Source of the DNA: an uncultured Ruminococcus sp.
GTDB lineage: Bacteria > Bacillota > Clostridia > Oscillospirales > Acutalibacteraceae
DNA length: 49,019 nt
Assembly (NCBI GenBank): GCA_902800005.1
Contig: CADCCP010000004.1
Coordinates: 67,773-116,791, forward strand
Reading direction: 5' to 3'
Positions 11,229-15,279 of this stretch are shown here, one piece after another (position 1 is the stretch's first letter; every line of letters starts with the position of its first letter). The position numbers were made by a program, and so were the translations under genes. Below the pieces are notes generated by a model. It had not been told where the DNA came from. It made no database searches and worked only from the letters and a program-made list of their open reading frames with translations.

Positions 11229-11405
11229 TTACTTGTACTTACGTTTACGAGCAGCTTCAGACTTCTTTTTACGCTTTACAGAAGGCTTTTCATAAGCTTC
11301 TCTCTTACGAACTTCCTGAATGATACCGCCTCTTGCACACTGTTTCTTAAATCTTCTCAATGCACTTTCGAGGGATTCATTGTCTTTAATTCTGATCTCA
11401 GCCAT
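11229..11405 (-). CDS. rpsU: 30S ribosomal protein S21
   Basis: 58 residues starting [20 protein letters not shown], continuing [23 protein letters not shown] and ending in a Lys/Arg-rich tail. Normal length and sequence for bS21. Ribosome site GGGAGGG is about 10 bases upstream. It has a near-consensus promoter at 11463-11492 and is probably the first gene of the transcript running through yqeG-aroQ. Confidence 0.97.
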
Positions 11406-11462: not shown

Positions 11463-11492
11463 ATTATACATTACACAAATACGATTTGTCAA
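11463..11492 (-). promoter_or_regulatory. Sigma-A promoter of rpsU
   Basis: Minus strand TTGACA (11492-11487), 18-base spacer, TATAAT (11468-11463); both hexamers are perfect consensus. The start codon follows about 58 bases later. It lies just after the methylase stop, so the rpsU transcript is independent of the restriction-modification genes. Confidence 0.88.
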
Positions 11493-11559
11493 CAAGTAAA
11501 ATCAAATAAATTTAAACAATTTTCTCTGTAAACTTTGCATAATGATTTTAATAAGCCGT

Positions 11560-12453
11560 TCATGCAAATTTCAACTGCACATTTTCCGATGAAATGCAGC
11601 TGCTATTTTCAAATGGTTCATAATTTATCAGTAACGCTTCTATTACTGCATTTCTGTTTTCTTCTTTTGCACCCACATGATAAAAATGCTCTTTTGTTAT
11701 CTTATGGCAAAATCCCCATAATTCGTTAATATATAAATTTGCTCTGTAATCATTATGATCCCAAGTCGAAAGCATAAATTTATTTTTTGAACCTTTCAAA
11801 GCCTCACATAATTTATTTTCATCACATTCATTCCAACTGTCATAATAATCAACATTTCTCCCTATATAAGGTGGATCACAATATATAAAAGATTTCTCTG
11901 TCGCTTTACCAATCGTTTTTTCAAATGAATCGCATATAAATTCCCAGTCGCACACCGATAAACATTCTTCTATATACTTTACCTGATTCACTATCTTTGT
12001 TATATATGCCTTTGAAAATCTCTGCGGTTTATGCCCGTAAGGAACATTAAATTTATGATCTTTATTAAATCTTATCATTCCATTGAAACATGAACGATTT
12101 AAGAAAAGAAAATCCAACGGCTCATGTTTTGAATTAAATCTTTCTCTGACTTCATAATAATATTCATCGTCTTTTTCTGAAAGTAATCTGCCATTTTCCT
12201 CAAGAAATGTCCTTATGATATAAGAGTTTATCTTTTTATCTTTCAACTGTTCGTAAAAATCAATAATATATGGATTTTTATCCGCAAAAATTGCTTTCTT
12301 TGGTTTTACATTAAAACCAACAACGCCCGATCCCATAAAAGGTTCTATCCATAATGTTTCTTCATCAACAACAACATTCCTTCTTATCAATGGAATCAAT
12401 TTGGTTTTAATTCCTTGTATCTTTATAGGCGGAACATAAATCTTTTCACTCAT
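11560..12453 (-). CDS. Dam-family N6-adenine DNA methyltransferase of an EcoRV-like system
   Basis: 297 residues, D12/Dam class. The SAM-binding motif I is PFMGSG at 38-43 followed by VVGFN; the catalytic DPPY is at 193-196 (YCDPPYIGRN). The N-terminal K.KLIPLI is typical of this class. The preceding gene is an EcoRV homologue, and M.EcoRV is itself a Dam-related enzyme, so the expected target is the adenine in GATATC rather than GATC. ATG comes one base after the endonuclease stop and is preceded by GAGGAG inside that gene, a strong site. The gene is near 28% GC in sampled lines, well below its neighbours. Confidence 0.92.
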   Translation of the reverse strand: MSEKIYVPPIKIQGIKTKLIPLIRRNVVVDEETLWIEPFMGSGVVGFNVKPKKAIFADKNPYIIDFYEQLKDKKINSYIIRTFLEENGRLLSEKDDEYYYEVRERFNSKHEPLDFLFLNRSCFNGMIRFNKDHKFNVPYGHKPQRFSKAYITKIVNQVKYIEECLSVCDWEFICDSFEKTIGKATEKSFIYCDPPYIGRNVDYYDSWNECDENKLCEALKGSKNKFMLSTWDHNDYRANLYINELWGFCHKITKEHFYHVGAKEENRNAVIEALLINYEPFENSSCISSENVQLKFA

Positions 12454-12454
12454 T

Positions 12455-13288
12455 CTATCTGCTCCTCTTGGATTTTTTTGGATTATTCAAATTTTCAGGC
12501 AACCCCTTAAATTCAAGATATTCTTTAAAACTTGACATCTTTTTATATGTGCCATCATCCTTTTTTATCTCTATCTTACCGAAATTAGCCCAGTAATCAT
12601 CAAACTTATCTTCTCCGGCTTTTGCAAAAACACCATTTCCGTTAATAATATCATCAATACATTGTATACTTCCGATATTGGCTGTGTTTCCGCTGCCACT
12701 TTTGTCACTTGCAATTTTCCATTTCTCTTCCGCAAAAAACACCAACCCTTTTATAACCGATGGAATATTTTTAATTTCGTCCACGGAATAGGTTCTCATT
12801 TCATCTGTTTTCAAAATATCGGTTCTTCTGTAAATGATACCCAAGCAAAAATGTCCCGAATAATCGCTGTATGGATATTGTATATTTTTTGTACTCTTTC
12901 GGTCAATAAAATACTCTCCATGAGATCCTAAAGTAAAACCATTGCAAAAATCATCATTTTCATCAAAATATGTTGTCTTTAAGTCAACCGCAAATTTTAT
13001 ATTTTCATTCTTCTTACAAATAAACGTCATATCCGGATACCAATTCTGATACTTTGCAAGTTCTATCCTGTAATTTATTTCATCAGCAAAATTCTTTAAA
13101 TAAGGAAATAACTGCAATTCCAATATCTTTGATATAACTTTTGTATCGCCCGAAACAGTATAAACATTTTTAAATATATCTATAAAACCTCTTATCGTCC
13201 ACTCATCATTTTCGGAAATCTTGGTTGACAAATTTCTAACAAATTTTTTTAGCTCCGTAAGGAACAACTCTTTTTCGTTCTCAAACAA
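12455..13288 (-). CDS. EcoRV-family type II restriction endonuclease
   Basis: 277 residues. Remembered EcoRV sequence aligns clearly: SGDTKV at 46-51, YQNWYPDMTF around Asp86 (EcoRV Asp74), VDLKTTY with Asp102 and Lys104 (EcoRV Asp90, Lys92), a (S/N)TKNIQYPY block, a GIIYRRTD block and the recognition loop GSGNTANIGS at 198-207 (EcoRV loop at 182-187 is GSGNTT). The catalytic PD...DxK set is complete. Predicted to cut GATATC. The best start is TTG at 13288 with only a poor ribosome site, giving about 12 extra N-terminal residues compared with EcoRV. It lies upstream of its methylase in the same transcript and 18 bases after the broken flavoprotein gene. Very AT-rich. Confidence 0.93.
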   Translation of the reverse strand: MFENEKELFLTELKKFVRNLSTKISENDEWTIRGFIDIFKNVYTVSGDTKVISKILELQLFPYLKNFADEINYRIELAKYQNWYPDMTFICKKNENIKFAVDLKTTYFDENDDFCNGFTLGSHGEYFIDRKSTKNIQYPYSDYSGHFCLGIIYRRTDILKTDEMRTYSVDEIKNIPSVIKGLVFFAEEKWKIASDKSGSGNTANIGSIQCIDDIINGNGVFAKAGEDKFDDYWANFGKIEIKKDDGTYKKMSSFKEYLEFKGLPENLNNPKKSKRSR

Positions 13289-13306
13289 TCTCGATTGCTT
13301 CTTTCA

Positions 13307-14408
13307 TCAGTTTTCGCCTGCAAGAACTCCTGTACAAAATGCCGTCTGCAAGTTGAATCCGCCCGTGTAACAATCCACATCTATGACTTCTCCCGCAAAA
13401 TACAAGCCTTTTATCAATTTCGACTCCATTGTTTTCGGCTCTATCTCTTTAACATCAACTCCGCCTGATGTCACTATTGCTTCTTCAAGCGGTCGATATG
13501 ATTTCACTGTAAGCGAAAATCTCTTTAAAAGTGATATTATATTTTTCCTGTCCATACGACTTATCTCACTGCACTTTTTCCAGCTTTTCCTCAGAAAGTG
13601 CGGGTTTCAAGTCTATATCAAGTCTGTATCTGCCCGACTGCATTTCTCTCATGTGAGAACTTGCACTCAAGATCACCGCCCCCGATACGCCGTATTTCAT
13701 CAACTGCAATTCACCGAAATCCGTATATATTTTTTTATTCGCATGGGTGTCAAAGACATTCAACGAAACATTCTTCAAAAGAAGTTTATCACATTCAGAC
13801 GGTATTTTTTCAACTGTTTCAAGCGGTACAAGTGACGGTTTCAGCGGTACTATCCTGTGTCCGACTTTTTCGGCAAATTTGTAGCCGTCCCCCGTTGAAC
13901 CCGTCAATGAATACGATTTTCCTCCGCAAGCGACTATCACCTTATCAAACTTCAAAAATTCATTCTGAATTTTTATCCCCTTTATACAATTATCTTCAAC
14001 GACTATATCCGAAACGGCTTTATTTATTATTTTACAGCCTGCCTGTCTTGACACTCTCAAGAGGGTATCAACGACATCTGCCGCCCTGTCGGATACAGGG
14101 AAAACTCTGTTTCCCCTTTCGGTTTTGAGTGCAAGACCGTTGCTTTCAAAAAATGTCATGGTATCGCTCGGTGAAAACCTGTTCAATGCACTGTAAAGGA
14201 ATCTTGCATTGACAGGAGTATTTTCTATAACGGTCTTTATATCGCAGTTATTCGTCAAATTACATCTGCCCTTGCCTGTGATATATATTTTTCTGCCTAT
14301 CTTCTGATTTTTCTCAAAGACAGTTATGTCATCACCTGCATAGGCTCCGAATATACCTGCCATCATTCCTGCCGCACCGCCGCCTATAACTGCCGTCTTT
14401 CTCGCCAA
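13307..14408 (-). pseudogene. HI0933/YhiN-family flavoprotein, broken by internal deletion and frameshift
   Basis: The 5' part (start TTG at 14408, GGGAGGAA upstream) encodes the FAD-binding GGGAAGMMAG motif, GKGRCNLTNN and the family's GGKSYSLTGSTGDGY, then stops at 13566 after LSEEKLEKVQ. The 3' part resumes in another frame with KCSEISRMDRKNIISLL and the family C-terminus (EEAIVTSGGVDVKEI, GLYFAGEVIDVDCYTGG) to a stop at 13307. The two parts sum to about 370 residues against about 400-410 for the family, so roughly 35-45 codons are missing. These flavoproteins are NAD(P)/FAD-dependent oxidoreductases of uncertain role. Likely inactive unless the join is an assembly error. Confidence 0.85.
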
Positions 14409-14409
14409 A

Positions 14410-15279
14410 TCACTGTTCCTCCCTGTTGTTGCTGTATACATCATACTCTTTCCATATATTTTCAAGTTTCTCAAACGTATTGCTTGCTTCAAGTTCGGGA
14501 TTAAGTACAGTTGCCACTATAAGAGCATTTATCATGCTCAACGGTGCTACAAGAGAATCCACCACCGATGCCATGTCACTTTTTGCAATAAGAACAAAAT
14601 CCGATACCGATACAAGAGGGCTTGCCATGCTGTCGGTGATGGCAATAACTTTTGCTCCCCTGTGATGTGCAAAGGTCATAGCTTTTATCGCCGCATTGGA
14701 ATATCTCGGAAAGCTGATGCCTATTATCACATCTTCACTTGACATTCTGAACAGTTTTTCATGTATCTCCGTTTCGCCGTAGTTGCTTATCACCTTGACA
14801 TTCTCAAATATCAGCGAATAGTAGTATCCCAAAAAAGATGCAAGTGCTGCCGAGCTTCTAACTGCAAATATATATATCGTTTTTGCCTTTGAGATGGCAT
14901 TGACTGCATTTTTGAAATCATCTTTTGATGTTTCTTCAATAGTCTTTCTTATCTTCTCTATATCCTGATTAAGAACCGTCTCAAGAATATCGTCATTGTT
15001 TATTCTGCTTTTTGTAACTTCGATCCTCTGTACAGATGTCAGCTTGTCCCTTATCATTTCCTGCATGGCTCTCTGCATCTGCGGATAGCCGTCATAGCCA
15101 AGCTCCGCTGCAAACCTTACAACAGTCGATTCACTCACGCCCACAGTTGTTCCCAACTTTGAAGCCGTCATGAATGCCGCCTTGTCATAATGCTTTGTAA
15201 TAAAATGAGCTATCAGCTTCTGACCTTTTGAGAAGCTGTGCATTTTTTCGTTTATATTCGACAACAGATTTTTTGTCAT
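14410..15279 (-). CDS. MurR/RpiR family transcriptional regulator
   Basis: 289 residues from the ATG at 15279 (AAGGGG upstream); an alternative start is six codons earlier. N-terminal HTH_6 domain (about 1-80) with TASKLGTTVGVSESTVVRFAAELGYDGY; C-terminal SIS domain (about 115-260) that would bind a phosphosugar. Such regulators control amino-sugar, ribose or cell-wall sugar catabolism. No sugar genes adjoin it; the downstream flavoprotein gene begins two bases from its stop, an arrangement seen in other Clostridia. Target unknown. Confidence 0.88.
   Translation of the reverse strand: MTKNLLSNINEKMHSFSKGQKLIAHFITKHYDKAAFMTASKLGTTVGVSESTVVRFAAELGYDGYPQMQRAMQEMIRDKLTSVQRIEVTKSRINNDDILETVLNQDIEKIRKTIEETSKDDFKNAVNAISKAKTIYIFAVRSSAALASFLGYYYSLIFENVKVISNYGETEIHEKLFRMSSEDVIIGISFPRYSNAAIKAMTFAHHRGAKVIAITDSMASPLVSVSDFVLIAKSDMASVVDSLVAPLSMINALIVATVLNPELEASNTFEKLENIWKEYDVYSNNREEQ

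Follow-up and report, generated by a model that had tools for sequence, protein, structure and literature searches.

A probable EcoRV isoschizomer inserted beside rpsU in a Ruminococcus genome: recognition site, insertion history and the apparent mixed ancestry of the EcoRV genes

The window, a stretch of 49,019 nucleotides from an uncultured Ruminococcus sp., contains two adjacent genes that very probably constitute a Type IIP restriction-modification (R-M) system of the EcoRV family, in which the endonuclease (R) most likely cuts unmethylated GATATC and the methyltransferase (M) protects the host. Homology and the avoidance of GATATC in the host genome make R a probable and well supported EcoRV isoschizomer, and the system adds such an enzyme from gut-type Clostridia. 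The added value of the analysis lies in computed support for the recognition site, in the history of the insertion and in the apparent mixed ancestry of the EcoRV genes themselves. The features discussed in the text are listed in Table 1.

Table 1. Positions of the R-M pair, its insert and the neighbouring features in the window
Feature	Position	Strand	Remarks
R, EcoRV-family restriction endonuclease gene	12455..13288	minus	277 aa, TTG start; PF09233, EcoRV chains
M, D12-class (Dam-type) adenine-N6 methyltransferase gene	11560..12453	minus	297 aa, ATG start
Complete insert, by comparison with the empty site in congener G406	11543..13306	minus	1,764 bp; blastn of junctions
FAD-dependent oxidoreductase gene (presumed), upstream of R	13307..14492	minus	two ORF pieces, 121-bp deletion at ~13579
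rpsU promoter, TTGACA-18-TATAAT	11463..11492	minus	12/12 consensus match; intact downstream of insert
rpsU (presumed), right-hand neighbour of insert	11229..11405	minus	58-aa ORF, 100% identical in L161 and L162
Candidate internal promoter for M, TTGACC-18-TACAAT	12877..12906	minus	inside R; 10/12 match, weak lead

Endonuclease and methyltransferase

Judged by its sequence and its modelled fold, R belongs to the EcoRV family beyond doubt. A profile search matched it to PF09233 with 380 bits (E 5.3e-114) over profile positions 4-244 of 244, the curated cut-off being 25 bits, and its residues 24-258 match solved EcoRV chains with an E value of 4.3e-45. The identity to R of EcoRV is 36-37%. An AlphaFold2 model, built on an alignment of 36 sequences including the query, has a mean pLDDT of 91.8; the 39 best PDB matches of this model in Foldseek are all EcoRV chains, many of them in DNA complexes, and the first-ranked one reaches a TM score of 0.86 by target length.

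The catalytic residues are kept: D86, D102 and K104 of R align with D74, D90 and K92 of EcoRV, and among 36 sequences of the tandem type described below, the query R included, D102 and K104 are invariant and D86 is present in at least 90%. The R-loop of R reads GSGNTAN, in which G182-S183-G184-N185-T186 and N188 (EcoRV numbering, also in what follows) are as in EcoRV and T187 is replaced by alanine. T37, K38, Q69, N70, T93, T94, T106, K119 and R140 are likewise kept. In EcoRV, the R-loop and K38 serve to recognise the site and to bend the DNA. Changes among the positions tabulated are L40I, Q68Y, H71W, S112E and A181S, and further T187A, Y219F, R221K, R226T and I233F. The Q-loop, QQNH in EcoRV, is thus YQNW in R, with Q69 and N70 retained and both outer residues altered. 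H71W and T187A are common to all six tandem-type sequences in the residue alignment. As described in the available part of PMC4081073, the R-loops of EcoRV form 12 of the 18 possible major-groove hydrogen bonds, K38 enters the minor groove at the midpoint of the site, and the Q-loop, which bears D74, makes two minor-groove contacts; because of these roles, the base-reading parts of R can be considered largely retained.

The ATG start of M lies one base from the stop of R. M passes PF02086 (3.6e-42, 145 bits) and also TIGR00571, the model of the Dam subfamily, and displays a DPPY motif at residues 193-196. Its identity to M.EcoRV is about 57% by blastp and 53% in the multiple alignment, and since M.EcoRV must protect against R.EcoRV, this lineage supports GATATC as the site. 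Matches to TIGR00571 and to the structures of Dam and DpnII would also fit a Dam-like GATC methylase with a specificity unrelated to that of R, a reading that we regard as most improbable: M resembles M.EcoRV far more closely than it does Dam (a match of about 70 bits across 185 residues), GATC is only mildly avoided in the host genome (observed/expected, O/E, 0.78), and GATATC does not contain GATC, so that such an enzyme could not protect it. The assignment of M to the M.EcoRV lineage is therefore preferred. No D12 methylase besides M was found in the assembly of the carrier genome, which is 89% complete.

An earlier note, made by a model from the letters of the window, had proposed an EcoRV-family R-M pair at 11560-13288, and both ORFs lie exactly there and pass PF09233, PF02086 and TIGR00571. 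It had read Asp86, Asp102 and Lys104 as the EcoRV active site, GSGNT followed by A (where EcoRV has T) as the recognition loop, the Q-loop as partly changed and M as a Dam-class methylase with DPPY, and the alignment and the D12 profile agree with it on each of these points. The same holds for two of the checks it had suggested, a search with the Pfam EcoRV profile and a structure prediction. Its predicted site, GATATC, finds support in the kept R-loop and the kept residues T37, K38, Q69 and N70, in the M.EcoRV lineage of M, and in the exact avoidance of this hexamer in the host genome.

Insertion beside rpsU and expression of the pair

The pair resides in an insert that consists of R, M and approximately 35 bp of ends. 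Its place is empty in the congeners G406 and G333, where blastn against L161 and L162 revealed the upstream gene, which we take from a reading of its sequence to be a FAD-dependent oxidoreductase gene, followed by a promoter and an ORF that is presumably rpsU (ribosomal protein S21), with no R-M genes in between. The insert starts directly past the stop codon of the oxidoreductase gene and ends upstream of the rpsU promoter, which is largely conserved in the alignment with L161 and L162. No recombinase gene is present within the 1,764 bp, and inspection of the ends by eye revealed no target repeat. The 121 bp missing from the oxidoreductase gene in the window are present in L161 and L162, and in the congener G416 (L171) this gene is one open frame.

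G416 has an insert in the same place and between the same flanking genes. Its M is intact and 75% identical, and its R is split into two frameshifted pieces (L171 654-1467), which a sequencing error in that assembly might also explain; the insert is probably a restriction system in decay at the same locus. In an rpoB tree, the carrier genome of the window (G000), G416 and G406 form one clade (100/100), within which G406 groups weakly with G416 (88/55). Because G406 joins G416 within this clade, it has likely lost the pair.

Gene order is uniform among the relatives. In all 80 loci compared, which are the best 80 of at least 545 confirmed among 594 candidate stretches from a scan of genome contigs, R comes first and M second on one strand, with a median overlap of 4 bases. 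Because they were selected by strength of match to an alignment headed by the R described here, these loci are biased towards the tandem type, and at least five of them are the same records as genomes counted elsewhere in this analysis.

R and M would make up an operon of two genes that lacks a C protein gene and lies directly behind the oxidoreductase gene. R is probably transcribed by read-through from the upstream operon, because the 18 bases between the oxidoreductase stop and the R start leave no space for a promoter. M would be produced from the same message by coupled translation, perhaps together with transcripts from a promoter inside R. The model for such a promoter is provided by EcoRI and Eco29kI, which resemble the present system in gene order, R preceding M in one operon, and in which a promoter inside R allows separate transcription of M according to the available part of PMC3874152; in the window the corresponding site is the weak candidate of Table 1. 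A scan for consensus promoters returned 19 sites compared to 14.3 (sd 3.5) in shuffled sequences, which is not a significant excess. EcoRV cuts GATATC in the middle and leaves blunt ends. R, as a predicted PD-(D/E)XK homodimer, would most likely cut the same sequence when it is unmethylated, and M would prevent this in the host by methylating an adenine in GATATC.

Compatible with the same family and site, but unlikely, is that R is unexpressed or defective in this strain. The congener G416 combines a frameshifted R with an intact M at the same insert, and five of the 80 relatives' loci have an R ORF of less than 250 aa next to an M of at least 280 aa, for which frameshift, assembly error or start choice are possible causes; M is shorter than 250 aa in two of the 80, one of them at a contig end. 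The TTG start, the missing room for an own promoter and the broken upstream gene point in the same direction. On the other hand, R is full-length, retains every catalytic residue and has a confidently predicted fold, and its TTG start is common to the same gene in G416. An active system that cuts GATATC hence remains the preferred reading.

Avoidance of GATATC in the carrier genome and in the genus

In 396 kb of the carrier genome, taken as 20 stretches from 5 of its 165 contigs, GATATC was observed 16 times, whereas a maximal-order Markov model predicts 273 occurrences (O/E 0.06). Among the 3,855 hexamers for which at least 20 occurrences are expected, it is the eighth lowest. The full assembly (2.395 Mb) contains 174 sites compared to 1,652 by scaled expectation (0.11), and as this value is milder than that of the sample, the unsampled contigs are less depleted. 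The nine one-base neighbour pairs of GATATC show O/E values of 0.88-1.43, none being similarly depleted, and the two-base neighbours GAATTC, CATATG and GTATAC show 0.57, 0.56 and 1.03, respectively. Because neither the neighbour pairs nor GATC are depleted to a like degree, the avoidance is exact to the hexamer GATATC. The loss of most GATATC sites from the genome is expected if this system, or an earlier one of its kind, cuts there.

The earlier note had listed three GATATC sites in the window and had remarked that the host must protect them if the system is active. All three are real and there are no others; however, three sites are a deficit compared to the approximately 14 expected (mean of dinucleotide shuffles 13.9), and the remark on protection does not take into account that most GATATC sites have disappeared from the genome.

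Other palindromes are also strongly avoided in the sampled 396 kb, including CGCG (4 seen, 295 expected), CTAG (2, 245), GCGC (8, 340) and GGCC (31, 918). Strong avoidance is further seen for the four RCATGY words, CTCGAG, CCCGAG/CTCGGG (CYCGRG-like), AACGTT, GACGTC and CGTACG. Their avoidance may reflect several R-M systems, whether current or former.

Within the genus, M of this kind was found in 5 of 61 genomes (E below 1e-130), and the same five exceed the PF09233 cut-off (G000, G416, G417, G432 and G443); R is broken in one of them (G416), and absence in the other 56 genomes rests on assemblies that are 62-100% complete. GATATC counts per genome range from 61 to 2,310 among the 61 genomes, which differ in size and completeness. 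All five carriers have fewer than 100 GATATC per Mb, as do 5 of the 56 non-carriers (G121, G214, G280, G406 and G412), and the medians are 71 per Mb for carriers versus 592 for non-carriers. The exact Mann-Whitney p-value for this comparison is 1.3e-4, or 4.9e-4 with the genome of the window excluded, and 0.15 for the reversed word CTATAG as a control; these p-values ignore kinship, and genome sizes were rounded.

Kinship was considered with the rpoB tree, which comprises 26 of 30 genomes, G412 having been dropped for lack of a match and G405, G434 and G399 for partial genes; G419 was kept although it is on an extremely long branch, which is probably an artefact of the strand or frame in which its gene was read. 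Depletion requires three changes on this tree and carrier status five. The carriers occupy three separate places. G406 as well as G121, G214 and G280, which are depleted but are not carriers, adjoin carriers; for G412, which is absent from the tree, a second marker gave no firm placement. When carrier status was tested against depletion with the tree taken into account, the result was not significant; this test had no power, as it offered four independent pairs, of which about one agreed and none opposed.

The plain reading is that these lineages have gained and lost GATATC systems, with a deficit that persists beyond the loss, so that the depletion of G121, G214, G280, G412 and G406 likely stems from lost systems. 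Because these five non-carriers are equally poor in GATATC, older or lost systems account for part of the signal. The available part of Rusinov et al. 2015 (PMC4687349) describes avoidance that outlasts lost R-M systems as common, and likewise orthodox Type II sites that are avoided in carriers and in system-free relatives. In contrast to that study, the present case is limited to a single system and a single genus, in which one locus occurs intact, with a broken R, and empty. A genus with carriers, one of them with a broken R, and with empty sites could be used for timing restriction-driven site loss and for tracing its persistence.

Weak PF09233 matches in G280, G219, G092 and G127 (18.8-21.1 bits) are below the cut-off and were not considered relatives. 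A tblastn search of R, M and the C proteins against the loci of these four genomes gave three hits (E 0.24-0.50), all in L009. A relic of an EcoRV system in G280 was consequently dropped, its profile match being below the cut-off and tblastn giving no convincing match.

An open scan covered all 64 six-base palindromes in sampled DNA of the five genus carriers and 17 non-carriers, in which G406 was unsampled and several genomes were represented by only 15-40 kb. GATATC ranked second of 64 by mean depletion in carriers (TTCGAA first), second by the difference between carriers and non-carriers (GACGTC first), and first by the weakest carrier, in which O/E is at most 0.24 with pseudocounts. The O/E of GATATC in the sampled DNA is 0.06-0.22 in all five carriers; among the non-carriers it is at most 0.08 in 4 of 17 and 0.32-1.17 in the other 13. 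The genus avoids many palindromes; the scan agrees with the site that had been predicted beforehand from homology, without singling out GATATC alone. Three carriers from other genera of the family are mostly less depleted, with O/E values in sampled DNA (100 kb each) of 0.54 for G098, 0.30 for G265 and 0.00 for G356, and whole-count values of 0.37, 0.19 and 0.22, respectively.

Operon types and the ancestry of M.EcoRV

EcoRV itself, encoded on the E. coli plasmid pLG13 (L016), resembles the present system in the fold, active site and R-loop of its endonuclease and in the D12 lineage of its methylase, and its site GATATC is probably the same. In contrast, the EcoRV system is divergent and includes a gene for a C protein, as described in the available part of PMC5333194, whereas R and M are arranged in tandem without a C gene here. 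None of the window ORFs of at least 60 aa matched any of four C proteins at E 1e-3, and a C-protein profile found no match near the pair at E 0.1. Thus, the pair was not classed as an operon of the EcoRV type. EcoRV and the three plasmid relatives L015, L017 and L018 each have a gene for a helix-turn-helix regulator that neighbours R and M and is encoded on the opposite strand.

When ORFs within 1.5 kb of the pair were searched with a profile built from four plasmid-encoded C proteins, one of the 80 relatives' loci (L034) gave a match; 74 of these loci extend at least 500 bases upstream of R. The tandem type therefore lacks a C gene as a rule, with L034 as a possible exception among these 80 loci. 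The ORF in L034 (3193-3687; the record of G443) encodes an XRE-type helix-turn-helix protein (HTH_3); it shares the strand of R, is located approximately 300 bases upstream of it, and may be a regulator of the pair or an unrelated host gene. A match in L027 was rejected as a C gene: it encodes a protein that combines a helix-turn-helix with a cupin, and it lies on the opposite strand at a distance of about 1.6 kb.

Tandem pairs in Rhodothermus marinus (L013) and Antarctobacter (L014), which are already annotated as EcoRV family, have the same R-M order and no annotated C gene. Identities to these pairs are 53-56% for R and 51-59% for M. They are plasmid-borne and belong to other phyla, in contrast to the bare chromosomal insert at rpsU described here. 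A literature search yielded nothing useful on any isoschizomer of EcoRV from Ruminococcus or from rumen bacteria, on the contact residues of M.EcoRV or on the term "EcoRV family".

The two genes of EcoRV do not seem to share one history. In a tree of 37 R proteins, for which long branches were warned of, the four endonucleases of the C-type systems are on one side of a branch (99). In the M tree, M.EcoRV is located among tandem-type methylases and apart from the other three C-type methylases. Holding the four C-type methylases together was rejected (p_AU 0.0002). Conversely, the grouping of EcoRV in the M tree was rejected on the R data (p 3e-49), although this group was named after the M tree had been seen; an AU test on R in which L015, L017 and L018 grouped without EcoRV gave no rejection (p 0.083). 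M.EcoRV (L016 61-957) is closer to the tandem methylases of L013, L014, L080 and L098 than to the other C-type methylases.

M.EcoRV thus seems to have changed its partner between tandem and C-type systems. Because a change of partner needs a site common to both types, the tandem type, including the pair described here, would read GATATC, and this exchange would be the strongest homology argument for that reading.

The exchange also bears on the alternative that the pair has another or a relaxed specificity and that other, earlier systems in the genus, directed at GATATC, left the avoidance behind. We consider this very unlikely. Five genomes without the pair are equally poor in GATATC, the Q-loop and some other residues deviate from EcoRV, and further palindromes are depleted in carriers, all of which such a reading would accommodate. 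It is, however, difficult to reconcile with an R-loop that is identical save for T187A and that makes most of the base contacts in EcoRV (available part of PMC4081073), with the nesting of M.EcoRV in the methylases of this subfamily, which needs a common site, and with the depletion of GATATC in all five genus carriers, at three separate places of the rpoB tree. GATATC is consequently retained as the most likely site of the pair.

For the family as a whole, we lean, with some reserve, towards a wider reading: the EcoRV family would comprise two operon types, the textbook one with a C protein and a tandem one, generally lacking a neighbouring C gene, to which this pair and the compared relatives of many phyla belong; M.EcoRV would be of tandem descent and re-paired with a C-type R, and the copy in the genus would have passed at one locus from intact to R-broken to gone while the GATATC deficit was kept. 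That the two genes of EcoRV differ in ancestry would be a small new detail on a textbook enzyme.

An EcoRV-family nuclease is also encoded by the halovirus HGTV-1, a tailed archaeal virus (L019 3959-4552), with no methylase annotated within 4 kb. This nuclease is shortened, and when aligned with EcoRV it carries other residues in place of K38 and N185.
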